Assembly (NCBI RefSeq): GCF_005145025.1
Contig: NZ_CP039695.1
Location: forward strand, 3,457,501-3,521,500
Source of the DNA: Novosphingobium sp. EMRT-2
GTDB lineage: Bacteria > Pseudomonadota > Alphaproteobacteria > Sphingomonadales > Sphingomonadaceae
DNA: 64,000 bases
Direction of reading: 5' to 3'
This document shows, piece by piece, positions 5,046-49,144 of this stretch (position 1 is its first letter; every line of letters begins with the position of its first letter). The notes under the pieces were generated by a model. It made no database searches, was not told the origin of the DNA, and was given only the letters and a program-made list of their open reading frames with translations. Position numbers and translations under genes: made by a program.

Positions 5046-5097
5046 GTACGGGCTGGTCGATGCTATCGGAGGAGCTAACGGCGACGATCGGCGCGCG

Positions 5098-6696
5098 TCA
5101 ACGGTCGATGAGGGCGCGCGCGGGCACCGGAGGCAGGGCGGGCTTGAGGCGATACAGCCGGAACTGGCGGGTGCCGATGGCGACAGTGGCGTAAGTCTCG
5201 TAATCGCGATCGAGCAGCCGCATCAACAGCGCGCGCGAAGACTGGTTGGCCGGCCGCGACAAGGGCTTGACGCCCACCATCACCACACTGGGACGCCGCG
5301 CCATGATCCGCCGCATCTCGTCTTCCACGTCGATGCCCAGCGAACGGCTTTCCACCGCCCCGGCAAGGTGCGTCGGGAAAATGTAGCTCGTCGCAAGGCA
5401 GGCGTTCGTGGTCTGGTAAAGCACCGGATCGCCTTCGTTCATGTAGAAGCAGCCATCGCCCAGTTCGGCCCGGATCAGACTGGTGGCGTGCTCCACGTCA
5501 CCCAGCGTGCCGTGGTGATAGAACTGGTAGGCCGGGACGACCACGCCGCCGATCGCGCCCAGCCCCAGCAGGAACCGCGCATACCACTTCTCGCTGCGGA
5601 TCTGCCGCCCTAGCGCGGGCGCGGCCAGAATGCACAGGGGCGCCAGCAGAGGCCCGACGTAGTGATCGTACCAGGTGCCGAACGCCAGGAATCCGGCGAA
5701 GGCCGCCACGCCCCAGGCCCGCAGCACATGCCGCGCGCGGGGATAGGAACCGCCGGTCATCGCCAGATGGTGCGGGGCATTGAAGATCGCGAACCAGAAC
5801 GGCGCGAGGACCAGCATTTCCTTGGTCAGCCGCCACCAGGCTTCGCCATCTGACTGGCGCGACATGATCGAGAAGAAATTGGCCTGCATGAATGCGCCGG
5901 CATGGCCCATCGCGCCATAGATGCCGAGCGCCAGCGCCGTCGGCGCCAAAGCGGCTCCTACCCACAGCAGCGCGGCGGCGCCGAGCTTCTTCCACGACCA
6001 GACATCGGCATAGGCGCGGCCGAGCAGCAGGGCGCCGAAAGCGACGCCTTCGAACACCACCGTGTACTTGATCTGCATGGCGATGCCGACCAGCGCCATG
6101 ATGCCCGCGCCGCGCCAGAGCAGTTGCGGGTCTTCCAGGCGCTTGAGCGTATCGACCACGGCCCATGCGGCAAGCGCAACGGGCAGGTTGAAGAACACCG
6201 GCGCCTGTCCCAGCACGCAGTTGAACACCGGCATGAACAGGATGTAGGCGAACCCGGCCTGCCACGCCCCGGCCCGTGGCGCGATCTCGCGCGAGAGCCG
6301 TTCGATCACCATCGCCGTCGCCACCGTGCTGAGCACGCCCGCCAACTGATAGGTGACGACGCCATCGCCCGGGAACAGGTGAAACAGCTCGAACAGCAGG
6401 AACAGGCCGATCGGCTTGCGGTCCCAGATGTCCACATAGGGCACCGCGCCGTGCAGCATCCGGTCGCCGACGAGCAGATAGAACTGTTCGTCGATGTGGA
6501 TCACCGGATTGCCGATCAGCAGCGCGCGCAGCAGCAGCGTCAGCGTAAGGTAGCTCAACGCCAGCGTCAGCCAGTCCGGCAGGTGCAGCTGTCGCCATGC
6601 GGCGGCGGCCCGGACCGGAAGCGTGGCCGAGAGCAGGGGCGGTGCATCCTGGGTTCGGACCGACGTCGTCCGGACGGCACCGACGCTTTCGACCAT
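5098..6696 (-). CDS. GT-C fold membrane glycosyltransferase (GT39/ArnT-like)
   Basis: 532-aa polytopic membrane protein. After a cytoplasmic N-terminus of about 45 residues and the first membrane span comes HIDEQFYLL, with the acidic pair Asp69-Glu70 expected for polyprenyl-phosphate-sugar-dependent GT-C enzymes. A DRKPIGLF segment follows, typical of the PMT/ArnT-like group. About ten further hydrophobic segments follow, then a soluble C-terminal domain of about 150 residues. Donor and acceptor cannot be told from sequence. It is the first gene of a minus-strand group with the GT22-like gene and the Sel1 lipoprotein. The 204 bases upstream (6697-6900) contain no gene and probably hold the promoter. 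Confidence 0.72.
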   Translation of the reverse strand: MVESVGAVRTTSVRTQDAPPLLSATLPVRAAAAWRQLHLPDWLTLALSYLTLTLLLRALLIGNPVIHIDEQFYLLVGDRMLHGAVPYVDIWDRKPIGLFLLFELFHLFPGDGVVTYQLAGVLSTVATAMVIERLSREIAPRAGAWQAGFAYILFMPVFNCVLGQAPVFFNLPVALAAWAVVDTLKRLEDPQLLWRGAGIMALVGIAMQIKYTVVFEGVAFGALLLGRAYADVWSWKKLGAAALLWVGAALAPTALALGIYGAMGHAGAFMQANFFSIMSRQSDGEAWWRLTKEMLVLAPFWFAIFNAPHHLAMTGGSYPRARHVLRAWGVAAFAGFLAFGTWYDHYVGPLLAPLCILAAPALGRQIRSEKWYARFLLGLGAIGGVVVPAYQFYHHGTLGDVEHATSLIRAELGDGCFYMNEGDPVLYQTTNACLATSYIFPTHLAGAVESRSLGIDVEDEMRRIMARRPSVVMVGVKPLSRPANQSSRALLMRLLDRDYETYATVAIGTRQFRLYRLKPALPPVPARALIDR

Positions 6697-6900
6697 TCAT
6701 TCGCTCCGTTGCTGCTGCACGCTAGACCTGTAACGGGCGAGCAAATCGATACCTTCGCGCTCGCGAACGCGATAATGGCCGACGCCCCTCATTTGGCGCC
6801 ATAACCTGTATCGCCAGTGAACGACAATCGGAAACCGCAAGGCGGCGCGATGGCGCGAACCGCCCGTGCGCCGGGATCCTGCGGGATACCGCCGTGCCGG

Positions 6901-7794
6901 TTAGCGTGTTGGAGTCCGCGGGGTTACGATGAACACCGGCGGAGGCGGTGTCGTGCCTGGCTCCGGGGCCAGCCGCCGCACGATTTCGTCGGCAATGGCG
7001 GCGTGGCCCAGCGCGGTCGGGTGCCAGGCGGGGCCTGTTCCAAAACCCGGATAGCCGGAGGCCCAGGGGATGACGGAACAGGGCGTGTGCGACCGGGACA
7101 TGCGGGCAGCCTCGATCAGCAGCGCTCCTTCCTGCCCGGCGACGCGCGCGATCACTTCCCGCAGCCGGTCACCCACCGCGCGCCGGTCGGCGGCTTCGGC
7201 GGGGGTCAGGGGCGTGCGATCGCACAAGACCAGACGGGGCAGGAGCGCCAGATAATCGACGAACACCAGCCGCGCGGCCGGCGCGCGTGTCCGCACTTGC
7301 GCGGCGATCAGCCGCAGGTTGGCTTCCAGCGCGGTCCACGTGGCCTGATCGGGCAGTGGAGGCGGCACGGCGCATTCGGGCTTGCTGCGAGTTTCCGTGG
7401 AAAGGCGGCACAGCCCCGCGAAGAAATCGCTGACATAGCGCACGTCGTTGGCGCCGATGGTCACGGTGACGAGCCGGGTGTCGGGCGTGACGGCATCGAT
7501 CTGCGGCGGCAGTTCGTCCCACTTGCCCAGGACGTGCTCCGTCTTCGCCGAACTGCACGTCGCGTCCGCCAGCGCCAGTTTCAGGCGCTGGGCGACGAGA
7601 TGGGCATAGCTGGGGGCCGTGCGCGAACAGCGCGGCGGCGTGCCGGGGTCGGGCGGGCCAAGCTGGAGGCCGGACGCAAAGGAATCGCCGATGGCGACAT
7701 AGCGCGCACCGGCTGGCAGACCCTGCGCCAGCGCACCCGACGGGAGGGCGAGAGCGAGCGCAAGGGCAGGGAGAACCGCCCGCAAGGCCTTCAC
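6901..7794 (-). CDS. Secreted SGNH/GDSL-type hydrolase
   Basis: 297-aa protein with an export signal (hydrophobic stretch to about residue 23, ending GALAQ). It has all SGNH blocks: IGDSFASG with the nucleophilic Ser, the conserved Gly region, GAND with the Asn, and HPTALGH with the catalytic Asp-His pair near the C-terminus. Such enzymes hydrolyse esters of lipids or sugars in the periplasm or outside; the substrate is unknown. The start is GTG at 7794, overlapping the era stop in a GTGA tetranucleotide, so it is the last gene of the lepB-rnc-era unit. Being coupled to era is probably positional rather than functional. Confidence 0.8.
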   Translation of the reverse strand: MKALRAVLPALALALALPSGALAQGLPAGARYVAIGDSFASGLQLGPPDPGTPPRCSRTAPSYAHLVAQRLKLALADATCSSAKTEHVLGKWDELPPQIDAVTPDTRLVTVTIGANDVRYVSDFFAGLCRLSTETRSKPECAVPPPLPDQATWTALEANLRLIAAQVRTRAPAARLVFVDYLALLPRLVLCDRTPLTPAEAADRRAVGDRLREVIARVAGQEGALLIEAARMSRSHTPCSVIPWASGYPGFGTGPAWHPTALGHAAIADEIVRRLAPEPGTTPPPPVFIVTPRTPTR

Positions 7795-9550: not shown

Positions 9551-10446
9551 AACAGCCCCCCAAGCCGGTTCCAGCGCGCGGCGGTGAACCAGGTCCAGGG
9601 CAGGAACCAGTTGGCCGAACCGTCGGTGGACCACATGACGATGGTCGCGCGGCCGATCAGGTTGTCCATCGGCACCAGCCCGATCCCTGCGCCCTCTACT
9701 GCCGGGAAGCGGCTATCCATCGAATTATCGCGGTTGTCGCCCATCAGGAACAGCCGGTTCTCGGGGATGACCACGGGCGGCGTATCGTCCTGCGGGCGAT
9801 AGCCGAGGTCCAGCACGTTGTAGCTTTTGCCTTCGGGCAGCGTCTCGCGGTACTGCGGATAGTGGCAGCTCGGCGAACCGTCCTTCTCCACCGCCTCGAA
9901 CTCGGGCGAGATGCAGTTGGTGTTGGCCGATACGTGGATCACGAAATCCTCGATCCTCTGCTTGGGCACCGGCTTGCCGTTGAGATGCAGCACGCCGCCC
10001 ACCATCTGCACGGTATCGCCGGGAAGACCGATCACGCGCTTGATGTAGTCCACGTCGTTGCCCGGGGGCGCCTTGAAGATCACCACGTCGCCGCGCTTGG
10101 GCGTGCCGGCCAGGATGCGGTGGGGCAGCAGTGGCACGCCGAACGGCAGCGAATAGCTCGAAAAGCCATAGGGCCACTTGGCGGCGAGCAGGTAATCGCC
10201 GTTCTCCAGCCGCGGCAGCATCGATTCCGACGGGATGTTGAACGGCGAGAAGATGAAGCTGCGGAAAATCGCGACCACGAGCACCAGCTTGATGAGGAAG
10301 ACGGCGAAGCTGTCCTCCTCCTTCTTCTCCTTTTTCGGCTTGCCCGCGATTGGTGGCAGGCCTCCCGAACCCGGCGTTCCGGCGGGGGAGGCGGCGCCTT
10401 CGGAGGCGGCTGGAGTCTCGGGTGTTTCGCTCATCGTCGCGGTCAT
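9547..10446 (-). CDS. lepB: Signal peptidase I
   Basis: Inner-membrane signal peptidase, 299 aa from ATG 10446 (a second ATG at 10434 would give 295 aa; neither has a clear ribosome-binding site). A Pro/Ser/Lys-rich cytoplasmic leader of about 45 residues precedes one membrane span (about 46-68). The catalytic Ser75 is in IPSESM and the general base Lys136 in DYIKRVIGLPGD. The C-terminal GDNRDNSMDSR box is also present. It is the first gene of the lepB-rnc-era-SGNH unit, running divergently from pgi. The C-terminal stop overlaps the proposed CTG start of rnc. Confidence 0.95.
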   Translation of the reverse strand: MTATMSETPETPAASEGAASPAGTPGSGGLPPIAGKPKKEKKEEDSFAVFLIKLVLVVAIFRSFIFSPFNIPSESMLPRLENGDYLLAAKWPYGFSSYSLPFGVPLLPHRILAGTPKRGDVVIFKAPPGNDVDYIKRVIGLPGDTVQMVGGVLHLNGKPVPKQRIEDFVIHVSANTNCISPEFEAVEKDGSPSCHYPQYRETLPEGKSYNVLDLGYRPQDDTPPVVIPENRLFLMGDNRDNSMDSRFPAVEGAGIGLVPMDNLIGRATIVMWSTDGSANWFLPWTWFTAARWNRLGGLF

Positions 10447-10472
10447 GTGGAGGGGGCGCGCTTTCGTCAAGT

Positions 10473-10492
10473 GTGTTGTGCATGCAATACAC
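10473..10492. promoter_or_regulatory. 20-bp near-palindrome in the lepB/pgi divergent promoter
   Basis: The 159-base space between the divergent lepB and pgi starts holds a near-perfect palindrome centred on TGCATGCA with GTGT and ACAC at its ends (two mismatched pairs). It has the size and symmetry of a dimeric repressor site. The cognate regulator is unknown; this is seen in sequence only. Confidence 0.4.
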
Positions 10493-10605
10493 TGTGCCGG
10501 AATACGTCTGCGCACCCGTACCGGAGATGAACGGGACGCTTGGCGGACGGCCCGCGAGCGGGCATGAGGGGTTTCGCAACTGCGAAGAAAAGGGATACCG
10601 GCGCG

Positions 10606-12126
10606 ATGAGTGGACAGGATCTTGCGGGCTGGAACGCTCTGGAAGCGCTGGCGCGGCCTTCCCTGAAGGACCTGTTCGGCGATTCGGAGCGTATTGCGCG
10701 CTACAGTACTGAACTGGAACTGCCGGGCGGGCCGATCCGCTTCGACTGGTCGAAGACGCACCTTTCGCCGGACGTGGAACGGGTGCTGGGCGAGATCGCC
10801 GGCACGATGGACCTTGCGGGCAAGCGCGAGCAGCTTTTCGCCGGCGCACGGATCAACAACACCGAAGGGCGCGCCGCCGAACATGCCGCCCAGCGTGGCG
10901 TGGGCAGTGATGCCAGCGTCGAGGAAGCCGGCGCCCTGCACGCGCGGATGCGGGCGCTCGTCGACGCGATCCACGCGGGCGTGCTGGGTGAGGTCAAAAG
11001 CCTGATCCATATCGGCATCGGCGGCTCCGCGCTTGGACCGGCGCTGGCGATCGACGCGCTAGCGCGTGAAAGCGCGCTGGTCGACGTGCATGTCGTCTCG
11101 AACATCGATGGTTGCGCGCTGGAAGCCGCGATGGCGGCCTGCGATCCGGCGACGACGCTGATCGCGGTCGCCTCCAAGACCTTCACCACCACCGAGACCA
11201 TGACCAACGCCGCCAGCGCGCTGGAATGGCTGCGCGAAGGCGGGCTGGACGATCCCTATGGCCGCGTGGTGGCGCTGACCGCCGCGCCGGAGAAGGCTGT
11301 CGAATGGGGCGTGGATGAAACCCGGGTCCTGCCGTTCGCCGAAACGGTGGGCGGGCGTTATTCGCTGTGGTCGTCGATCGGCTTTCCCGTGGCGTTGGCT
11401 CTGGGCACGCAGGCCTTCGGCGAGTTCCTGGAAGGCGCGGCGGCGATCGACCGGCATTTCATCGAAGCCCCGCTGGACCGGAACGTGGTCGTTCGCGCGG
11501 CCTTCGCCGATCTTTACTACACGCAGGCGCGCGGGTGCCAGACACGCGCCGTCTTCGCCTATGACGAACGGCTGCGCCTGCTGCCCGATTATCTCCAGCA
11601 GCTGGAGATGGAATCGAACGGCAAGCGGGTGACGGCCGACGGCCAGCCGCTCGCCCGGCCCAGCGCGCCGGTTACGTGGGGCGGGGTGGGCACCGACGCA
11701 CAGCACGCGGTGTTCCAGCTGCTCCATCAGGGCACCCATCTGATCCCGGTGGATTTCCTCGCCGTGAAAGTGCCGGGCCACGATCTTGATCCCGCGCACC
11801 ACCGCATCCTGCTGTCGAACTGTTTCGCGCAAGGCGCGGCGCTGATGGCGGGCAAGGCTTCCGACGACGGCGCGCGCGCCTATCCGGGCGACCGGCCTTC
11901 GGCCACGATCTTCTGCGACGATCTGAACCCGGCAACGCTGGGCGCGCTGATCGCGTTCCACGAACACCGCACCTTCGTTTCGGCGATGCTGCTGGGGATC
12001 AATCCCTTCGACCAGTTCGGCGTGGAACTGGGCAAGGCGATCGCGAAGCAGATCGAGTCCGGCGGCGGGGAGGGCTTCGATCCGTCCACCGAGGCGCTGC
12101 TGGCGGCGGCCGGTATCGGCGAATAG
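10606..12126 (+). CDS. pgi: Glucose-6-phosphate isomerase
   Basis: Interconverts glucose-6-phosphate and fructose-6-phosphate in the cytoplasm. The 506-aa protein has the PGI signature GGRYSLWSSIGFPVAL, the catalytic block EMESNGKRV, the region WGGVGTDAQHAVFQLLHQG and the C-terminal QFGVELGKAIAKQIE. The start is taken at ATG 10606 (SGQDLAGWNALEAL), which aligns with the usual N-terminus; upstream in-frame ATGs at 10540 and 10564 would add residues of no family character. It is transcribed away from lepB. A 12-bp inverted repeat follows 12 bases after the stop. Confidence 0.95.
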   Translation: MSGQDLAGWNALEALARPSLKDLFGDSERIARYSTELELPGGPIRFDWSKTHLSPDVERVLGEIAGTMDLAGKREQLFAGARINNTEGRAAEHAAQRGVGSDASVEEAGALHARMRALVDAIHAGVLGEVKSLIHIGIGGSALGPALAIDALARESALVDVHVVSNIDGCALEAAMAACDPATTLIAVASKTFTTTETMTNAASALEWLREGGLDDPYGRVVALTAAPEKAVEWGVDETRVLPFAETVGGRYSLWSSIGFPVALALGTQAFGEFLEGAAAIDRHFIEAPLDRNVVVRAAFADLYYTQARGCQTRAVFAYDERLRLLPDYLQQLEMESNGKRVTADGQPLARPSAPVTWGGVGTDAQHAVFQLLHQGTHLIPVDFLAVKVPGHDLDPAHHRILLSNCFAQGAALMAGKASDDGARAYPGDRPSATIFCDDLNPATLGALIAFHEHRTFVSAMLLGINPFDQFGVELGKAIAKQIESGGGEGFDPSTEALLAAAGIGE

Positions 12127-27111: not shown

Positions 27112-27187
27112 GCGGCGGTTCCGTACAATCGGCCGCGCCCATTTCCTGTTAGGCTTCCTGTCCTGATGGATGGGGAGCCTGACAGCC

Positions 27188-28141
27188 ATGTTTCACGGGA
27201 ATGTAAGCCTTGAAATCGCGCAAGGGCTGCAACTGCTCAAGAAGCGGATCGACGCCGCGCGCATACCGCCCTCGAAGCTTGACGAGACGCTGAACATCGC
27301 CACCTGGAACGTCCGCGAATTCGGGAAGAAGCGGCGTAGCGAGGCGGCGATCCATTATATCGCGGAAATCATAGGCCAGTTCGATCTGGTCGGGCTGGTC
27401 GAACTGCGTGACGACCTGACCGATCTCCATCGGGTGCTTTGCATCCTCGGGCCTTATTGGGATGCGGTCTATTCCGATGCGGTTCTCGATGCGGGCGGCA
27501 ATCGCGAACGGATCTGCTATCTGTTCGACAGCCGGACGGTACGTTTCAACGGCATGGCGTGCGAGGCCAGCCCCCCGCGCAAGAAGCGCGGGACCGAATA
27601 CATTGCCGAGGATTCCTGGTGGCGATCGCCCTATGTGGCCGCGTTCAAGGCCGGAAACTTCGATTTCCTGGCCTTCACCACGCATGTCCGCTGGGGTGAT
27701 AGCGACGCAGCGCGGCTGAAGGAAATCCAGGGCCTTGCCGATTGGGTGAAAGCCAAGGCTGCCGAAAAGCACGCCGAGGACAAGGACATCATCGTGATGG
27801 GGGATTTCAACATTCCCAGCCGCCAGGACCCGATGTTCGCGGCGATCACGTCGGGCGGGCTGAAACTGCCCACGGCCCTGCTCGATGACAGCTTCGGCAC
27901 CAATCTCGCGCGTGACAAGCGCTATGACCAGATCCTGCACATGCCGCGCTTCGAGGACAATTTCACCAACGCGGGCGGCGTGGTTGATTTCTACGCCAGC
28001 GATCACAAGCCGCTGTTTCCCGATATCGACAAGCAGGCCTTCACCTACCAGATGTCCGATCACCTGCCGCTGTGGATACAGATCAATACCGATATCGACG
28101 GCATGTTACTGGAGCAGATCATTCAGCGGAAATCGCGTTGA
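27188..28141 (+). CDS. Endonuclease/exonuclease/phosphatase (EEP) fold hydrolase
   Basis: 317-aa Mg2+-dependent phosphoesterase-type protein without a signal peptide. EEP motifs appear in order: ATWNVREFG (metal/catalytic Asn), GLVELRDD (Glu), VMGDFNIPS (Asp-Asn pair) and SDHLPLWI (catalytic His). The substrate (nucleic acid, phosphoinositide-like or other) is unknown. The start at ATG 27188 is favoured because GGGGAG lies ten bases upstream; an ATG at 27170 overlaps that site. It is 76 bases after thiC and 97 bases before the secreted-protein cassette, all in the same direction. Confidence 0.8.
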   Translation: MFHGNVSLEIAQGLQLLKKRIDAARIPPSKLDETLNIATWNVREFGKKRRSEAAIHYIAEIIGQFDLVGLVELRDDLTDLHRVLCILGPYWDAVYSDAVLDAGGNRERICYLFDSRTVRFNGMACEASPPRKKRGTEYIAEDSWWRSPYVAAFKAGNFDFLAFTTHVRWGDSDAARLKEIQGLADWVKAKAAEKHAEDKDIIVMGDFNIPSRQDPMFAAITSGGLKLPTALLDDSFGTNLARDKRYDQILHMPRFEDNFTNAGGVVDFYASDHKPLFPDIDKQAFTYQMSDHLPLWIQINTDIDGMLLEQIIQRKSR

Positions 28142-28238: not shown

Positions 28239-29012
28239 GTGATCTTTCTTCGACGTTTGCAATGGCGCGGTGTCGCAGCGTTCGTTTGTGCGCCCGCGCT
28301 GGCGCTCATTTTGCCATCGCCGGCGGCGCACGCGTGCCCGCGATCGGATGCCTTGGCGCCCAAGAATGCAAAAACGCAGTACCGGCAGCGGGAAGATCGC
28401 TGCGAAGGGATCTACGCCACGCCGGTATCGACCACGTCGCGTCCCCGCATTGTCGGCTTTCACCGGAAAGCGTTTCCCGGCGTCGCGTTCTCGACCATAC
28501 CGTCCACCTCGCTCAGCCTTCTCGTTGGATCGCAATCGCGTCCGGTGAGCATCAGGGCCATATCGCTGCGGCCGCGGACCTATTACGCAATGGATACGGA
28601 CCTTGCGGCGGGGCGGTCCGGCTATTCCTGGAAAACGTCCATACTGTCGTCGCCGGAACTGGCGTTGCGCGCCAATGAACTGGGCGTGCTGGCCTGCGAC
28701 AACATGTGCCTTCCGCAGGCCACGACTTCGTATTTCCCCGTCGAGCTTGCGATCCCCGCCTCGCCCGCGCAGGCGGTGGGATATGTGCTGATCTTCCAGT
28801 CGGATGTCAGCATAGAACGCGCGGCGGTCACGCTACAGGATGCGAGCGGCGCCACCGTGCTGCAGCGCCAGCTTAACGGCCGTTACGTGGGGTCATGGCC
28901 GATAACGGCCGCGATCGGGCAGCCGCGTGCGGGTACCTATCGGGTCAGGCTGACGGCCGAGGCAAGCGACGGCACCCGCCTCAACGCCGCTTATTCGATC
29001 GTGATTCCCTGA
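28239..29012 (+). CDS. Secreted protein of unknown function
   Basis: 257-aa exported protein. The N-terminus is RLQWRGVAAF... with a hydrophobic core and an Ala-rich cleavage site ending AAHA before CPRSD. The mature part is about 225 residues with four cysteines and a C-terminal third rich in beta-strand pattern (GYVLIFQ, AAVTLQDASG, GTYRVRLTAEA), resembling an immunoglobulin-like fold. I do not recognise a family. The start is taken as GTG 28239, close behind a run of five G; it is uncertain. The stop TGA 29010-29012 is two bases from the next ATG, so it is coupled to the bitopic membrane protein. Confidence 0.6.
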   Translation: MIFLRRLQWRGVAAFVCAPALALILPSPAAHACPRSDALAPKNAKTQYRQREDRCEGIYATPVSTTSRPRIVGFHRKAFPGVAFSTIPSTSLSLLVGSQSRPVSIRAISLRPRTYYAMDTDLAAGRSGYSWKTSILSSPELALRANELGVLACDNMCLPQATTSYFPVELAIPASPAQAVGYVLIFQSDVSIERAAVTLQDASGATVLQRQLNGRYVGSWPITAAIGQPRAGTYRVRLTAEASDGTRLNAAYSIVIP

Positions 29013-29014
29013 GG

Positions 29015-30028
29015 ATGACCGCCGGGACGCCAACACCGGCGCCTGCCCGGCGCTGGTTCGGGCGATGGCATGCCCTGGCCATCGCGGGGCTGTCGCGCGT
29101 GACGGTCGCGATCTGGCTGTTCGTCTTGCTCGTGCTCGCGGCAATCGTGCTCAACTTTGTCGCCAAGCCGACGGTGGAATTTTCGCTATACGCGCAAGTG
29201 GAGGGATTCAGCTTCGTCACCCGCGGCAGGATGTCCACCAATACGATCAAATTGCGCAGCGCCGAAATCCTGTCGGCCGGGCAGGTGACAGTCGATGACC
29301 GGCCGGTTCCGATCGCCGGGGCCAGCCGGGTGAAGATCGTAGGCGTCGACGGCGATCTCACGCTTTCCGACGTCAGCGTCGGCAAGGGCTGGACCGTTTC
29401 CGTGCAGGGGCAGGAAAGCCGCCATCTGCTGATCAACGCAAACCCGGCGCAAGCGGCGGAACCGGGGGCGCAGGCGGAGGCGAGCTTCGTGGCCGGCACA
29501 GGGGCGGAACTGCGCTACGTGGCGCAGGATGGCAGCGAGAAAGCGCTGCCGCTGCAGGAAAACGCCGAAGTGGCGATCCGCACTGGCACGCTGTCGATCG
29601 ATCTGGACACCGATGCCGCCAAGATACTGCAATCGGCTGAAGTGAGCGCGCTTTCTTTGACCCGCGACACGGCGACCGTGGATGAATCGGGGCGCGGGAG
29701 TATCGTCGTCGAGGGAACCGTCGCGTCGGGAAAATTGTGGCGCGAATACGCCGCCGGGGAAACCGAACTCGGCCCCCTCGATCAACTGACCGCAACGGCG
29801 ATCGAAGGCGGCGTGTTGCGCAATGTCGTGTGGCGGGACGGCGCGATCGGGCTGGCGGCGCACGGCGATGCGGGCAGATTGAGCAATAGGATCGGCGAAA
29901 CCGCGCGCGACCTTCGCCCCAGCATCCTGACGGTGTTGCGGGAACTGGGCCTTTTCCAGGTCATCCTCGCGATCTTCACGTTCGTAAGCGGCCTCGAACT
30001 GACCGCATTCATCGGCCGGCGAAAATGA
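29015..30028 (+). CDS. Bitopic membrane protein with a large beta-rich outer domain, unknown function
   Basis: 337-aa protein. A short basic cytoplasmic N-terminus is followed by one membrane span (about 31-52, IWLFVLLVLAAIVLNFV), a long beta-rich region (about 55-300) and a second hydrophobic segment near the C-terminus (VILAIFTFVSGLELTAFI). The topology suggests a periplasmic domain held at both ends. No enzymatic motif or known family was recognised. It starts two bases after the upstream secreted-protein gene and its stop overlaps the protease start (ATGA, 30025-30028). The three genes are therefore one translational unit. Confidence 0.65.
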   Translation: MTAGTPTPAPARRWFGRWHALAIAGLSRVTVAIWLFVLLVLAAIVLNFVAKPTVEFSLYAQVEGFSFVTRGRMSTNTIKLRSAEILSAGQVTVDDRPVPIAGASRVKIVGVDGDLTLSDVSVGKGWTVSVQGQESRHLLINANPAQAAEPGAQAEASFVAGTGAELRYVAQDGSEKALPLQENAEVAIRTGTLSIDLDTDAAKILQSAEVSALSLTRDTATVDESGRGSIVVEGTVASGKLWREYAAGETELGPLDQLTATAIEGGVLRNVVWRDGAIGLAAHGDAGRLSNRIGETARDLRPSILTVLRELGLFQVILAIFTFVSGLELTAFIGRRK

Positions 30029-32094
30029 AGCGGTGGCTGCTCCGTCGCTTCCTTGCGATCGGCGTGTGGGGCGCGCTGGCGGCGGCTGGCCCGGTGGCGG
30101 CCCAATCGCCAGGCGGCACGCAAAACGATCTCGTCGCAATGCTGCACTCGGTCGATGCCACGGGCCAGTTCGATGGAAGCTTGTGCGGCTCCGCCCTGGT
30201 TCTCTCCCAGTCGGACGGCAGGACACTGCTGTTGACGGCGAAGCATGTGCTGGCGCAACTCGACGAGGAAAACGACAGCCGGAAACTTTCCGGTGATCCG
30301 CCGGTGCGGCTGGGGGCGCAGTTTTTCGGTGCGGTGGGCACGTTCCACGAAGTCCGGCCGTTGCCGGGCGTGTTCAGCGAATCGCTCGATTATGCAGTCG
30401 TCGAGGTCATTCCGCGTCCCGGTACGACGATTGCCCCGCCCGGCTCTTGGAACAGGCTGGGAGCACTCGATGGTGACGATGCGCAAGGCGACAAGCCGGG
30501 GTATCAGGATGTGAGAGCCGTCGGCTACAGCCGTTGTCGGCCGTGGGCCGCCTCGGCGTCGCCGGAAAAGGTCATCGCTGTCGGCGGCACCGACATAACC
30601 TTTGAAACGCGGTTTGTGGACCACGGCAGTTCGGGCGGCGCGCTATTCGCCGTGGATGGCAGGCTGGTGGGAATGGTCGTCAAGACCGACGGGGATGAGG
30701 GCACCGCGCGATCGATCGATGTCATTCTGTCCGACCTCGCGCTCAAGAACGTCAGGACAGACCTGACCTACGGCGTATCCGCGGCAATGGATGCGGCGAT
30801 TCGCGGACAGGCGGTCCCGACTTATGCCAGTCAGGTAAAGGCTACGAGCGTTTCGGCGCGCATCGAACGAACCGGTGGGAAGGGGGTGCGATTTCGCGCC
30901 GACCTGGATGACCTCGGCGCCCCTGCGCACGAGCTAAAGCTCGTCGGCGGTCCGGACGATCGCGACGTGAAGTATGGTATCGATCTCGATATTGCCGATG
31001 CGTTGACCCGCAGCTACCAGGTTCGGATCGGGTTCTCCGACGGCAGTTCCGTGACCTTGCCGATCGACTTCAAGGCGCCGTTGACCGCACGGATCAAGGC
31101 CCTTGCCGATAGCGACGTTGCCTGGCTGTACCATCGCCCGGGTGGTGCGGTCGTTATTGGTTCGCCCAGTTATGACGTGGTCGGCCTTGTCAGGTATATT
31201 GATGTCGGGTGGTCGCCCGATCTTATGGCCCATCGTGCGGTGTTCCGCTATTCGGGTTTCGAACCGCCCAAACTCACCGGGACGGCAGCGCTGAATGCCG
31301 TCCCGGAGAATCGCGTGATTGTCGGCCCGGCTGGTGCCGATCGCGCGTGGTATAGGCTGACCTTCGCCGATGGATCGGTAACGCCGCCGCGTGCGCTGGC
31401 TTTCACCCCCGAGGACATCAACCTCGATCGGGGCCAATACGGATTCGCGCGATTGTTGACGACGCCCGAAGGCGTGGTTTTTTCCTATCGATACAAGCAG
31501 GACGACGTTGGCGCATTCCAGACCGGGGGAAGCATGGCCCTGTCGCGCCCCTACGGGCTTAGCGGCGATTACACGATGCAATACGATCTCGACGGCAAGG
31601 GCTTTCTTGAGGCCGGGCAAGACAGGCTTCCGTGGATGAACGCGCCGTTCAAGGTGCGGTTCGTGGAGAAGGCGACCGGTATCGCGACCCAGGTGTTTTC
31701 CTTGCCGGCACCCGATAGCGAGGCAGTTGGGGACGATGCCCCTTCGACTTTCCCCGAGGTCACCTGCCGTCGGTCAACCGCGCGGGAAGGGGCGGCGTGC
31801 TGGTTTCGCGATTTCCGAGCGATCGGTCATGTCAAGACGTGGCGCATGTCCTTCGTGTCGGAAGCGCGATTGCAGAACGCTGCGCTTGCCGATCTGCGGC
31901 CGGTATGGCGATCAGCCGAAGGTCGTGCGCGGATTCGTGAGTGCCGCAACAGCTATAGTCCAGCTTGCCTTGAGTGGCGGCGCAATCTTGGCGGATGGTG
32001 GGACGCACCGGCTGGCGCGACGGACTTTTACTATTCCGTCACGATGAAGGACGGGCGCACTCTCCCCGCGCAGCGGGTAAGCCTTGCGCAATAA
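30025..32094 (+). CDS. Secreted trypsin-like serine protease with long beta-rich C-terminal part
   Basis: 689-aa exported protein. The signal peptide ends near residue 26 (AGPVAAQ). The first 230 residues form a chymotrypsin-type fold with a complete triad: His74 in LLTAKHVL, Asp122 in SLDYAVVE and Ser203 in DHGSSGGALF. From about residue 260 to the end come roughly 430 residues of beta-rich sequence (repeated Tyr/Gly/Asp strands) with four to six cysteines and no recognised domain. It is the last gene of the three-gene cassette and probably acts on a surface or periplasmic target. Substrate unknown. GC content is visibly lower than in the housekeeping genes around it. Confidence 0.75.
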   Translation: MKRWLLRRFLAIGVWGALAAAGPVAAQSPGGTQNDLVAMLHSVDATGQFDGSLCGSALVLSQSDGRTLLLTAKHVLAQLDEENDSRKLSGDPPVRLGAQFFGAVGTFHEVRPLPGVFSESLDYAVVEVIPRPGTTIAPPGSWNRLGALDGDDAQGDKPGYQDVRAVGYSRCRPWAASASPEKVIAVGGTDITFETRFVDHGSSGGALFAVDGRLVGMVVKTDGDEGTARSIDVILSDLALKNVRTDLTYGVSAAMDAAIRGQAVPTYASQVKATSVSARIERTGGKGVRFRADLDDLGAPAHELKLVGGPDDRDVKYGIDLDIADALTRSYQVRIGFSDGSSVTLPIDFKAPLTARIKALADSDVAWLYHRPGGAVVIGSPSYDVVGLVRYIDVGWSPDLMAHRAVFRYSGFEPPKLTGTAALNAVPENRVIVGPAGADRAWYRLTFADGSVTPPRALAFTPEDINLDRGQYGFARLLTTPEGVVFSYRYKQDDVGAFQTGGSMALSRPYGLSGDYTMQYDLDGKGFLEAGQDRLPWMNAPFKVRFVEKATGIATQVFSLPAPDSEAVGDDAPSTFPEVTCRRSTAREGAACWFRDFRAIGHVKTWRMSFVSEARLQNAALADLRPVWRSAEGRARIRECRNSYSPACLEWRRNLGGWWDAPAGATDFYYSVTMKDGRTLPAQRVSLAQ

Positions 32095-44570: not shown

Positions 44571-44630
44571 ATTTTCATTGAGAAGTGACCCGGGTGGGCG
44601 TGGATGATGTGCTGCCTGCGACGAGCAGGG

Positions 44631-45410
44631 TCAAGCGGGTGATTTGTCCTTTCTGGATTTTGGGGCGGCGGAACTGGCTCTGAAGCGGAAGCTGTCATTG
44701 CCGGTTTCAAGGATATGGCAATGATGCGTGAGGCGATCCAGCAGGGCGGTGGTCATTTTGGCATCGCCAAAGATACTGGACCACTCGCTGAAGCTCAGGT
44801 TGGTGGTGATAACAACGCTGGTCCGCTCATAGAGTTTGCTGAGCAGATGGAACAGCATGGCCCCGCCTGAAGGGCTGAAGGGTAGATATCCCAGCTCATC
44901 AAGGATGACGAGGTCGAGGCGCAACAGACGCTCGGCCAACTGGCCCGCTCTGTTTGCGGCCTTTTCCTGCTCCAACGCATTGACCAGATCGACGGTGGAG
45001 AAGAAGCGGATCTTTTTGCGGTGATGCTCAACCGCCTGGACGCCCAAAGCCGTCGCGATGTGGCTTTTGCCGGTGCCTGGTCCGCCGATCAGTACGACGT
45101 TGTCGGCGCTATCCATAAAGTCACCACGGTGAAGTTGACGCACGAGCGCCTCGTTGACCTCACTGACGGCAAAGTCGAAGCCTGCCAGATCCTTGTAGGC
45201 CGGGAACCGGGCTGCCTTGATCTGGTAAGCAATGGACCTGACCTCCCGCTCGGACATCTCCGCCTTGAGAAGCTGTGAGAGGATCGGAACGGCAGCATCA
45301 AAGGCTGGCGCGCCCTGCTCGATCAGATCACCAGCGGCTTGCGCCATGCCATACATTTTGAGGCCACGTAGCATGACAACCACAGCGGCGCTGGCCGGAT
45401 CATGACGCAT
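44631..45410 (-). CDS. istB: IS21 helper ATPase IstB
   Basis: 259-aa AAA+ ATPase that helps the IstA transposase choose and join target DNA. The Walker A motif is GGPGTGKS (109-116) and Walker B is [13 protein letters not shown]. The arginine-finger region [25 protein letters not shown] is present. ATG 45410 overlaps the istA stop by 11 bases. Full length and apparently intact. Confidence 0.95.
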
Positions 45411-46929
45411 GGCGTAACGCCCTCAGCGTGTCGTAGCGTTCGACATCGGCAACAGGCTCCTGGGCGAGGCGCAGGGCCTGCGGGGCATCGATTGGGGATG
45501 CCGGTGGAGCCTTGCCATCGATCAGGCGGTGCAGAACATTGAGGATGTGGGTTTTGGTCGGCACCCCAGCTTCGAGGGCCAGTTCGACGGCGCTGAGCAC
45601 AGCCTGTTCGTTATGCTGTAGAACAAGGGCGAGGATTTCGACCATCTCCCTGTCACCACCGAGCCGCTTGAGCAGATGCCCCTGCAGTTGCCGGAAGGCT
45701 TCGGGCATTTCGAGGAATGGCGCCCCATTGCGCAAAGCGCCAGGCTTGCGCTGAACAACTGCCAGATAGTGCCGCCAGTCATAGATCGTCTGCCCCGGCT
45801 TCTGGTGAGAACGGTCGATAATCCGGTTGTGCTCGCACAAGATTTGCCCCTCGGCCGCGATGACCAACCGATCAGGATAGACCCGCAGGCTCACTGGCCG
45901 GTTCGCAAAGGATGCAGGAACGCTATAGCGATTGCGCTCGAACGCGATCAGGCAGGTCGGCGACACGCGCTTGGTATGTTCGACAAAGCCATCGAAGGCC
46001 CGCCCCATCGGCATCAGGCTGATAATCTCAACGGCGTGCACATCGGCAACTGTGCCGGGGAGGACGCCATGCTGGATTTCTCCCCATTGTGCGATGCACC
46101 GCTCTTCCAACCAGGCATTGAGGGCATCAAGATCTGGGAAGTTGGGCATTGGCTGCCATAACCGTCGACGCGCATCCTGAACGTTTTTCTCGACCTGACC
46201 TTTCTCCCAGCCTGAGGCCGGATTGCAAAAATCCGTTTCGAACAGGTAGTGGCTGGCCATGGCAGCGAACCGCGCATTGACCTGTCGGACTTTGCCCTGG
46301 CCGATCCGGTCTACAGCCGTCTTCATATTGTCGAATATTCCACGCTGAGGCACGCCGCCCAGCACCCGGAAGGCCTGCGTCAGTGCGTCGAACAACATCT
46401 CGTGCGTTTGCAGCAGATAGGCTCGCGTGATGAACGCCCGACTGTGGGAGAGCTTGGTATGGGCCACCTGCAGCTTGGTAGGCCGGCCATTCAGAAGGGC
46501 GTAATCTTCACTCCAATCGAACTGAAAGGCCTCACCGGGCTGGAAGATCAGCGGTACGAATGTGCCGCGCCCACTGGTTTGCTTTTCATATTGGCGTTCG
46601 GTCTTCCACGAGCGGGCGAAGGCGGCAACACGGCTGTATGATCCCTCGTAGCCCAGCTTAACCAGATCTGCATGTAGCTGCTTGGCTGTTCGCTTCTGTT
46701 TGCGCGACTTGCCAGATTCCACCCGCAGCCACGTCGTCAGTTTTTCTGCAAACTGATCAAGCTTGCTCGGCCGTTTGGGAACCTTGAACGTCGGCTCCAC
46801 CGCGTCATCGCGCAGATATTTGCGGATCGTGTTGCGCGATAATCCAGTCCGCCGCCGGATCTCGCGAATGGGGATGCCTTGCCGAAAATGCCAGCGGCGG
46901 ATCACACTGAGTAGGTCCATGTCGATCAC
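45400..46929 (-). CDS. istA: IS21 transposase IstA
   Basis: 509-aa DDE transposase. An N-terminal helix-turn-helix ([19 protein letters not shown]) is followed by the RNase H-like core, with [10 protein letters not shown] for the first acid, [11 protein letters not shown] for the second and [14 protein letters not shown] for the third. GTG 46929 is chosen because AGGAGG lies seven bases upstream; ATG 46920 is in frame. No internal stop or frameshift is visible, so the element may still be mobile. Confidence 0.95.
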
Positions 46930-47001
46930 TCCGATGCCTCCTGACTGTCAGCCAGGGGCGAGGAAAACATGGGTCAATTCTCAGTGAAAACTTATAACCC
47001 T

Positions 47002-47030
47002 CCCGGGTCACTTCTCAGTGCAACTCAACA
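47002..47030. repeat. IS21-type terminal inverted repeat, istA-side end
   Basis: Exact reverse complement of 44542-44570. The sensor gene reading frame is cut directly at base 47031. Confidence 0.95.
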
Positions 47031-49144
47031 GCTTGGCGATCCCGGCCAGCATCGACCCAATCATTGTCACCCGGAGAGAGCCGGTAGCGATATCGATTGG
47101 CGTTGGTGTCGGTCAGGCTGAGCGCGCTGTAGTCGATTTCAATTCGCGTTGTGCCAACCGGTAGCCGAATTGCACCGCCGCGCGGATCGTATCGTACCCC
47201 GCTCGAAGCGAGGGAGCGGATCACTATCGGCGGTGGCAGGCGGTTATGGCGCAGACGCTCGGGGTCGATCCAAGCCAGGCCGTGATTGGTCGCGAACCAC
47301 AACCGTCCGCTCGCATCCTGCACGATGTCGTTCGTGTCGAGCGTGTTCGATCGCGCGGCAAGTCCAACCTCATAACCGAACCTATCAAAGTCGAGAGGTA
47401 TTCCCGGTTTGCGAAAGGCTTCGTCGAGATTGGCGTCGGCAAAGCGGGCTATCCCTTGCGTGCCGATCACCCAGGTGAAACCGTCGCCCGCACGGCGAAT
47501 GCCGGTCAGCCCGGCGAAGATCGGATACGTTTGCTCGGTAAGTGCCGAGAGCCGACCGCCTTGATATCGACCAAGCCCCTTTTGGGCCGCTTGAAAGAGG
47601 ATGTCTCCCTGCGGGATCAATCCGTTGATGACGCCGATGCGGCCCTTGGACGTTGGCCAGAGCATGGCTTCTTTGCCGTCCTGAAGGTGGATCACCCCAT
47701 AAAAGGTGCGAGCAGCGAAAAGTCCCCCCTTTGGATCAGCGGCCAGATGGACAAAGCGTCCGACCTCCTTGGCGCCCGCACCGGTTGCCGACACCAGGTG
47801 CGAGCCATCGACACGGTATAGGTGGTCCATACCGCTCCAGAACGTTCCGTCCTTCTCACGCGCGCACGTGATCGTAAGCGGCCCCGAAACCGGCTGGACA
47901 CGCGCCACTCTGCCGGCGCTTGTGAGCGTCAGATGGAAGGCGCCAGCCATCGTCACGACGAAGAGTTGCTGTTCATCTCCGCAGATCACGCCGATCGAGG
48001 GTTTGCGGAAGATGAGCTCTGGTTCGGCAAGATCCCGGCCTGCGCGGTAGACCCCTGAGAGACCGGCGAAAAATACGTGGTGGGTCAGTGGGCCACCTGC
48101 AAAACCGGTAACCATCGGTTCCCTTGATTTCGGCTGCACGACATTGCTCGGCGCAAGACGCTCAAGGCCAAACTCGGTGCCAATCCAGATGTTGCCCTCT
48201 CGGTCCTCGAATATGCAGAGCGCAATTGGGGCTGGAACGCCTCCTGGGCCATGCGCGCGTTCGGCGGGAGCGAACCCCCCGTCTGACAGCTGCCTAAAGC
48301 GTGCGACGCCCTGATCCTCGCCGGCCAGCCAGAACGATCCGTCCCTGTCGCGCAGCATGGCCCGATGGATATGTGGCGTGTTTACGCCGCCAACTTTGAT
48401 CGCCGCCTTGTTGCGTGAGCGATCAAGGGGTCTCAAGCCATGATCGTCGCCCAGCCAGAGCGTCCCATTTCTACTCAAGGCGATCACCGAGAATTCAGTC
48501 GCCGGCAGATTCGTCGGCTCGAACTGCTTTGCCCCGGGCGCCAGTCGAAGGATTTGCGGCGTAGTGGCGAGATATATGCTCCCGTCCGACGCGGGGAAAA
48601 GGACGCCCGATTCCACGGTCCTGATTCTCTCATTTGCCCCCAGTTTAGACCAGCGGCCGTTGGCGTAGCGGGACACAATCGCGAAGCCATTGCTGTCGAC
48701 GGAAACCCAGATTGCTCCGTCGCGTCCCTCGACGATGTTGACTACGCCGCCAACCGGTTTCGAGGGATTGGCGTTGCGCAATCGCCCTCCACGCACCACG
48801 CCAACGCCACCATAATCGTATCCGACCCATATTTCGCCGTTTCGCGCTGCCAGAAGAGCGGTCACCTGAAGCGAGCGCAGGGGATCGACGTCTGCGGGCT
48901 TGATCCGCTCGAACCGTACGCCATCGAAGCGATAAAGGCCGGTCGAGGTTCCGAGCCACAGAAACCCGTCGGGACCTTGCGCAATGGCACGGATGTTCCC
49001 TGGCGCGCCGTCGCCCAAGCCCCAGGTGGTGTGCCGATATTGATCGATGGCCCGGGCAGGATCGAGTGCGCAGGCAGGCGTGGGCATCAACAGGAGAAGT
49101 AATGGAAGCAGCAGCGCCAGGCCCAGTCCGCAACACCGGCGCAT
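47031..49144 (-). pseudogene. Beta-propeller sensor (histidine) kinase gene, 3' part lost at the IS21-type element
   Basis: About 704 native codons remain. A signal peptide (LALLLPLLLLLMPTPACA) is followed by two-component regulator propeller repeats such as GPDGFLWLGTSTGLYRFDG and ARNGEIWVGYDYGG, a full propeller, and the start of a Y_Y_Y domain (NRYRYRLSPGDNDWVDAG). Here the gene hits the IS, which adds five codons and a stop (frame ends 47015). In this family a membrane span and a histidine-kinase region, or a GGDEF or HTH domain, should follow. They are gone, so signalling is almost surely lost. The start (ATG 49144 or TTG 49183) is uncertain. Confidence 0.85.

Follow-up and report, generated by a model that had tools for sequence, protein, structure and literature searches.

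Analysis of a 64,000-nucleotide stretch of Novosphingobium sp. EMRT-2 (contig NZ_CP039695.1, positions 3,457,501 to 3,521,500; referred to below as the window) revealed three adjacent genes, here termed g1, g2 and g3, that belong to a conserved module, co-directional and closely packed in six loci of distant bacteria. They encode a small exported protein, a two-span membrane protein and a predicted trypsin-fold serine protease. This trio recurs, though seldom, in very distant bacteria, where the end of the protease is completely different, which points to a mobile device for sensing or defence at the cell envelope. As a tentative reading, we consider it a rare, horizontally moving envelope proteolytic relay in which g1 and g2 form the fixed core and the protease brings an exchangeable tail. 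A description of the module was not found in the open-access literature among the matches listed. The genes are located in the window as follows:

28239..29012, plus strand: g1, GTG start, 257 amino acids; small exported protein
29015..30028, plus strand: g2, 337 amino acids; membrane protein of a new family, with two spans around a domain of ~266 residues
30025..32094, plus strand: g3, 689 amino acids; exported trypsin-fold serine protease with a C-terminal region of ~420 residues

All three genes are complete. A 2-base gap separates g1 from g2 and a 4-base ATGA overlap joins g2 to g3, which bears out the coupling described in the first-pass annotation made from the sequence of the window. 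The linkage in other genomes, which that annotation proposed to check, was also confirmed, the trio being kept together in distant genomes and not found apart in most. Seven loci were compared, namely the window, two from Acidobacteriota (L002, L003) and four from Myxococcota (L004, L014, L015, L016). In each of them g1 is followed by an adjacent g2 on the same strand, with a protease gene downstream in six of the seven; in L003 no protease was found in the 16.6 kb examined and g1-g2 remain. The g1-g2 gaps, in bases, are +2 in the window, -4 in L002, +5 in L003, +21 in L004, -38 in L014, +5 in L015 and +4 in L016 (some gene starts were chosen among alternatives, and that of L016 g2, GTT, which is not a start codon, is approximate). 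All module gaps fall between -38 and +21 bases, except in L015, where a protease-like gene stands between g2 and g3.

In a leave-one-out control, profiles built from the other loci and database relatives were run against all open frames of at least 60 amino acids. This recovered g2 at 7/7 loci (E 1.9e-15 to 3e-63) and g3 at 6/7 (E 1.1e-6 to 1.8e-35, about equal in the window); g1 was recovered at 7/7, as expected since the loci were picked by g1. With a listing limit of E 10, every match was the sole frame reported, and it stood where the gene was expected.

The module is very rare. At E 1e-3, a protein search returned eight clusters for g1 and two each for g2 and g3 (for the latter two, scoring was confined to the roughly 8,000 candidates with the most shared words), one of each being 98-99% identical; in the case of g1 this cluster, P0007, was flagged as the protein encoded by the window itself. 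P0016, 37% identical to g3, is listed as Novosphingobium sp. AP12. An alignment scan for g1 over genome contigs of 84,980 species, performed with two peptide patterns, gave 30 stretches, of which three were confirmed, all in metagenome-assembled genomes: L002 (Acidobacteriaceae), L003 (Solibacteraceae) and L004 (Myxococcaceae). A g1 profile detected 4 of 195 genomes of Myxococcota, including L014, L015 and L016 missed by the contig scan, which therefore underestimates the spread. In the phylum of L002, g1 occurred in one of 347 genomes. Closer to the window it was seen in the window's own genome only, among 397 genomes of the family, 289 of the class and 160 of the phylum, these sets overlapping; likewise, g2 in 249 family genomes and g3 in 154 genus genomes were each found once, in that same genome. 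A g2 profile, built from loci found via g1, matched 5 of 189 Myxococcota genomes, four of them at the places found with the g1 profile. The fifth match (G758, E 2.2e-4, 67 positions in a frame of 1189 amino acids) was dropped as unrelated. When the window proteins were used singly in tblastn over the six other loci, g1 was detected in five (all but L016), g3 in L002 alone, and g2 nowhere; consequently, it is on profile searches that the relatedness of g2 and of most of g3 depends. Pattern matches in viral contigs (28 and 4) yielded no confirmed relative and none was found in plasmids, which rules against carriage of the module by phages or plasmids.

The part of the module that varies is the end of the protease, for which the window has the following features:

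30829..32091, plus strand: g3 C-terminal region, residues 269-689; among the six other tails similar to that of P0016 only
31327..31401, plus strand: copy 1 of an internal repeat, residues 435-459
32008..32082, plus strand: copy 2 of the internal repeat, residues 662-686

Seven C-terminal regions were compared at the sequence level in 21 pairs with 200 shuffles each, the triad-less gene of L015 being left out. Two pairs were similar, window-P0016 (z 98.8) and L014-L016 (z 27.4), the next best reaching z 1.8 and 1.7. The seven proteases thus carry five classes of tail (window type, L002, L014/L016, L004 and L015) with no detectable similarity between classes, although they may share a common fold. 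The L002 tail has RCC1 repeats; those of L014 and L016 have internal repeats (0/200 shuffles each) and look Ig-like by eye, and that of L004 looks barrel-like, by eye only. In the window tail, the repeat 435-459/662-686 was not equalled in 500 shuffles as a pair chosen by eye, and was matched in 3/200 shuffles in a free search, as was the corresponding repeat of P0016. The first-pass annotation reported about 430 extra beta-rich residues of no known domain in g3; there was indeed no Pfam match beyond the protease core, and these residues fall in the part that differs between modules.

The protease core itself is characterised by the following:

30187..30675, plus strand: g3 protease core, Trypsin_2 match at residues 55-217, Pfam E 7.4e-11
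30244..30246, plus strand: codon of catalytic His74, kept in P0016
30388..30390, plus strand: codon of catalytic Asp122, kept in P0016
30631..30633, plus strand: codon of catalytic Ser203 in a GxSGG motif, kept in P0016

The His74-Asp122-Ser203 triad is complete, as claimed at first pass. A sub-threshold Pfam Trypsin match is also present, and an eight-row g3 profile matched the cores of HtrA1, DegP, DegQ and DegS best (E 3.6e-10; 94 sequences at E 1e-3). Judged by such profiles, g3 is probably a trypsin-fold bacterial protease of the HtrA and Spl/V8 neighbourhood. PDZ domains were not found in Pfam scans of eight protease genes (window, P0016, L002, L004, L014, two of L015, L016). Against NCBIfam HtrA/Deg models, the L002 protease scored far below cut-off and the window protease P0003 and that of L004 gave no match; the L002 core (residues 94-251) matches PADLOC RT-Protease_XI at E 2.2e-6. 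Aspartate six positions before the catalytic serine marks trypsin specificity, and the alignment has Phe instead of Asp there in the window protein, so that trypsin specificity is not expected. In L015, a triad-less gene at 5975-7102 directly precedes the gene with an intact triad, forming a possible tandem of inactive and active copies. This gene is labelled protease-like because of the triad alignment only: it resembles g3b in short pieces only, was not recovered by the leave-one-out protease profile and has no Pfam match.

The membrane protein g2 shows three features in the window:

29105..29161, plus strand: membrane span 1, residues 31-49, by hydropathy
29906..29920, plus strand: membrane-proximal motif preceding span 2, RDLRP here and of RSLMPTWLEWL type in several relatives
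29960..30016, plus strand: membrane span 2, residues 316-334, by hydropathy

The domain of ~266 residues between the spans would lie on the extracytoplasmic side. With two spans, g2 is a two-pass protein and not strictly the bitopic one it had been called. The membrane-proximal motif, in one form or the other, precedes span 2 in most of the eight g2 sequences. No Pfam family was matched above cut-off by any of the eight, and their eight-row profile found no solved-structure relative at E 1. Weak matches concerned one member each: Cupin_2 and Spectrin (E 0.028), and phrog_15178 on L014 g2 (E 0.021).

In g1, two features deserve mention:

28239..28334, plus strand: signal-peptide-like N-terminus, residues 1-32, with a presumed cleavage site
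28401..28403, plus strand: codon of Cys55, which together with Cys33 is invariant in 14 sequences; presumed disulfide

The signal-peptide-like N-termini of g1 and g3, recognised by eye and hydropathy, and the two spans of g2 agree with the export proposed at first pass. The family motif of g1 is YRxRGDRCEGxY, and residues C33, Y48, C55, E56, G57, Y116, D119, W131 and P167 are common to all 14 aligned sequences. Since the cysteine pair is invariant, a C33-C55 disulfide is likely. Neither g1 nor g2 of the window has a Pfam or NCBIfam match above cut-off or a PHROGs match at E 0.1, and PADLOC gave none at E 0.1 for g1, g2, g3 or the EEP-fold gene lying upstream. We consider g1 a new family with its own N-terminal part carrying the DRCEG motif and with no curated family cut-off reached. 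The C-terminal half points weakly to a known fold: the window protein has sub-threshold Ig-like Pfam matches, five of the 11 members examined match CopC at E 1 or better (lowest value 0.0014), with P0001 scoring 13.3 bits, below the curated cut-off of 23.3, and the PcoC structure 1ix2 matches that half of the g1 profile at E 0.0049. Hence the statement that both companions belong to no known family stands as regards well-studied families and needs qualification for this CopC/PcoC-like C-terminus. Similarity between g1 and g3 or between g2 and g1 was considered and rejected (hhalign E 0.38 and 0.53).

Lower GC (guanine plus cytosine) content than in flanking genes had been read as consistent with acquisition. 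This was not confirmed in the window: the values are near-equal, 0.640 for the cassette versus 0.654 for the rest, and 0.641, 0.651 and 0.632 for g1, g2 and g3 versus a mean of 0.653 (sd 0.038) for 49 window open reading frames, which were called by a simple script and some of which may be miscalled. GC at third codon positions is modestly low in g1 (0.748) and g3 (0.723) versus a mean of 0.786 (sd 0.074). The module and flank values elsewhere are 0.557/0.676 in L004, 0.584/0.677 in L014, 0.519/0.684 in L016, 0.678/0.688 in L015, 0.569/0.572 in L002 and 0.698/0.650 in L003. Three of seven modules (L004, L014, L016) are therefore clearly foreign to their surroundings, 9-17 GC points below the flanks. 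The idea of an acquired module thus failed on composition in the window and found strong backing in three of the four Myxococcota loci. This foreign GC, together with rarity, argues that the module moves horizontally.

Several neighbouring genes were noted. The EEP-fold gene at 27170-28141, upstream of g1 (Exo_endo_phos E 5.4e-11), which the first-pass annotation left as a possible member, is an independent, patchy gene and not part of the module. Of 12 relatives tested, G091 alone has it, as a 73% identical copy that stands without the module, and it gave no tblastn match at E 1e-3 in stretches of 11-16.6 kb around the six other loci. Further along the window, positions 44600-47041 hold an IS21 element (ISRsp3), 99.9-100% identical to plasmid copies of Sphingobium, Sphingomonas and Rhizorhabdus; it borders a possible island, a stretch at about 45-55 kb with a lower GC of 0.57-0.63. 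An IS66 transposase lies upstream of the L014 module and a DUF5953 gene downstream (6416-7186, E 7.3e-114), and a gene near the L015 module (10104-10877) has a sub-threshold SMI1_KNR4 match (E 0.088). Two genes upstream of the L004 module (5074-7429) resemble, by eye, a protein with an HNH end and its companion; a toxin-immunity nature was rejected, no Pfam family being matched.

A mechanism can be proposed on these grounds. All three proteins would work at the inner membrane, on its outer face. There g1 would bind the large domain of g2, the pair forming the fixed core; the exchangeable g3 tail would recognise cues or targets that vary from lineage to lineage and would switch the protease on. 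Activated g3 would then cut g2, or possibly g1, and the output would be a membrane protein set free or changed in shape. Such a relay would resemble DegS-RseA-RseB in its working without belonging to that system, swappable domains taking the place of the PDZ sensor. Because only ~30 residues precede span 1 of the window g2, a transcriptional output appears less likely than one at the membrane or in the periplasm. A relay with exchangeable input is the simplest reading of constant g1, g2 and protease core, variable tails and the persistence of g1-g2 without a protease. The surface proteolytic pathway with a membrane partner envisaged at first pass is thereby partly supported, namely by the trio being kept together in distant genomes.

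A number of observations weigh against this relay. Once L002 is removed, the best solved match of the g3 profile becomes SplE (E 5.2e-8), followed by HtrA1 (3.5e-7); a profile from the window pair P0003/P0016 gives only E 0.4, and P0003 as a single query has no match at E 0.1, so that firm HtrA membership is weakened. The L004 protease lacks the aligned catalytic Asp and the extra protease-like gene of L015 has all three triad positions replaced. In the g2 of L015, span 2 is weakly hydrophobic (0.98 versus 1.59-2.28 in the others). An anti-sigma or RseA domain was absent from the eight g2 members in the Pfam scan. L003, counted above as persistence of the core, could be a decayed copy. Finally, rank correlations of pairwise identities among six modules are weak (g1-g2 0.50, p 0.058; g1-g3 0.19, p 0.49; g2-g3 0.23, p 0.41), and strict co-divergence of the three genes is unsupported.

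Rarity and mobility make a role in conflict a serious rival, which we regard as doubtful at present: the tail would sense a phage, predator or competitor, proteolysis would free g2 from g1, and g2 would damage the inner membrane. The sporadic spread over distant groups, the foreign GC at three of seven loci, the differing presumed sensors on constant parts, and the IS66 transposase and sub-threshold SMI1_KNR4 match beside L014 and L015 agree with it, and published conflict systems include trypsin-like proteases, according to the available part of the source (PMC7159879). This is countered by the lack of PADLOC matches for the window genes and of confirmed relatives in viral contigs or plasmids. 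Furthermore, NTPase, EAD, Trypco and NucA partners were not found in Pfam scans of g1, g2 and g3, with module neighbours scanned in part; Pfam includes Trypco models. A related proposal, rather unlikely in our judgement, is a mobile envelope immune-like system detecting threats outside the cytoplasm, where a lineage-exchanged protease sensor (RCC1, Ig-like, barrel-like and tandem-repeat tails) would activate a g2 effector restrained by g1.

Two more ordinary roles were weighed. A housekeeping relay for envelope stress or quality control, in which cleavage of g2 signals to the cytoplasm via its N-terminal part, would suit a core near HtrA/Deg enzymes and the about 50-133 residues that precede span 1 in the g2 of the six other loci; it is distinctly unlikely given only 30 such residues in the window g2 and 27 in P0006, and a g1 confined to its own genome among 397 of the family. 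Equally improbable is the reading of g3 as a secreted or surface protease served by two helpers, with g2 as a membrane-bound factor for folding or export and g1 as an inhibitor protecting the producer. Genes for a small exported and a membrane protein do directly precede that of an exported protease; however, in L003 the two presumed helpers occur and no protease was found, the proteases served carry quite different tails, and Pfam scans of g1 and g2 revealed no inhibitor or foldase family. That the genes are chance neighbours without common function is most improbable: only seven loci are known, but six of them, in distant bacteria, agree in order and strand, leave-one-out detection succeeded, and g1 and g2 searches reach the same places.

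It should be added why the relay with exchangeable input matters. Two families without a library name adjoin at every locus examined and are tied, in six of seven, to an exported protease whose presumed recognition part varies with the lineage. If the tails are sensors, nature has here supplied a series of proteases that feed various inputs into a single output, and bacterial detection of damage or attack outside the cytoplasm becomes testable.

Among known systems, DegS-RseA-RseB of the sigma-E envelope stress response consists of a protease of the HtrA family, a membrane substrate and a periplasmic regulator. The module resembles it in combining a presumably periplasmic trypsin-fold protease, whose core probably lies close to those of HtrA/Deg enzymes, with one partner in the membrane and another that is soluble and exported. 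It differs in that no PDZ or anti-sigma domain was found, g2 has two spans, the partners match no family, the tails differ and the presence is very patchy. The C-terminal half of g1 is weakly similar to CopC/PcoC, periplasmic Ig-like copper proteins, from which g1 is set apart by scores below the curated cut-off and by its own N-terminal part. Bacterial gasdermin-protease operons encode a protease beside a membrane-acting protein, a neighbourhood comparable to that of g2 and g3 by analogy only; g2 is integral to the membrane, with two spans, and gave no gasdermin match in Pfam scans. Lastly, in the accessible parts of three papers (PMC7159879, PMC8195603, PMC10907252), trypsin-like peptidases of conflict systems, the VMAP/iSTAND ternary and NucA-trypsin systems, have NTPase, EAD, Trypco or NucA partners, and some periplasmic or secreted sensors are predicted (PMC10907252). 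Compared with the systems as presented there, the module is unlike them in that two of its products look exported, and like them in pairing a trypsin-fold protease with variable domains that are presumably sensors, and in its scattered distribution.

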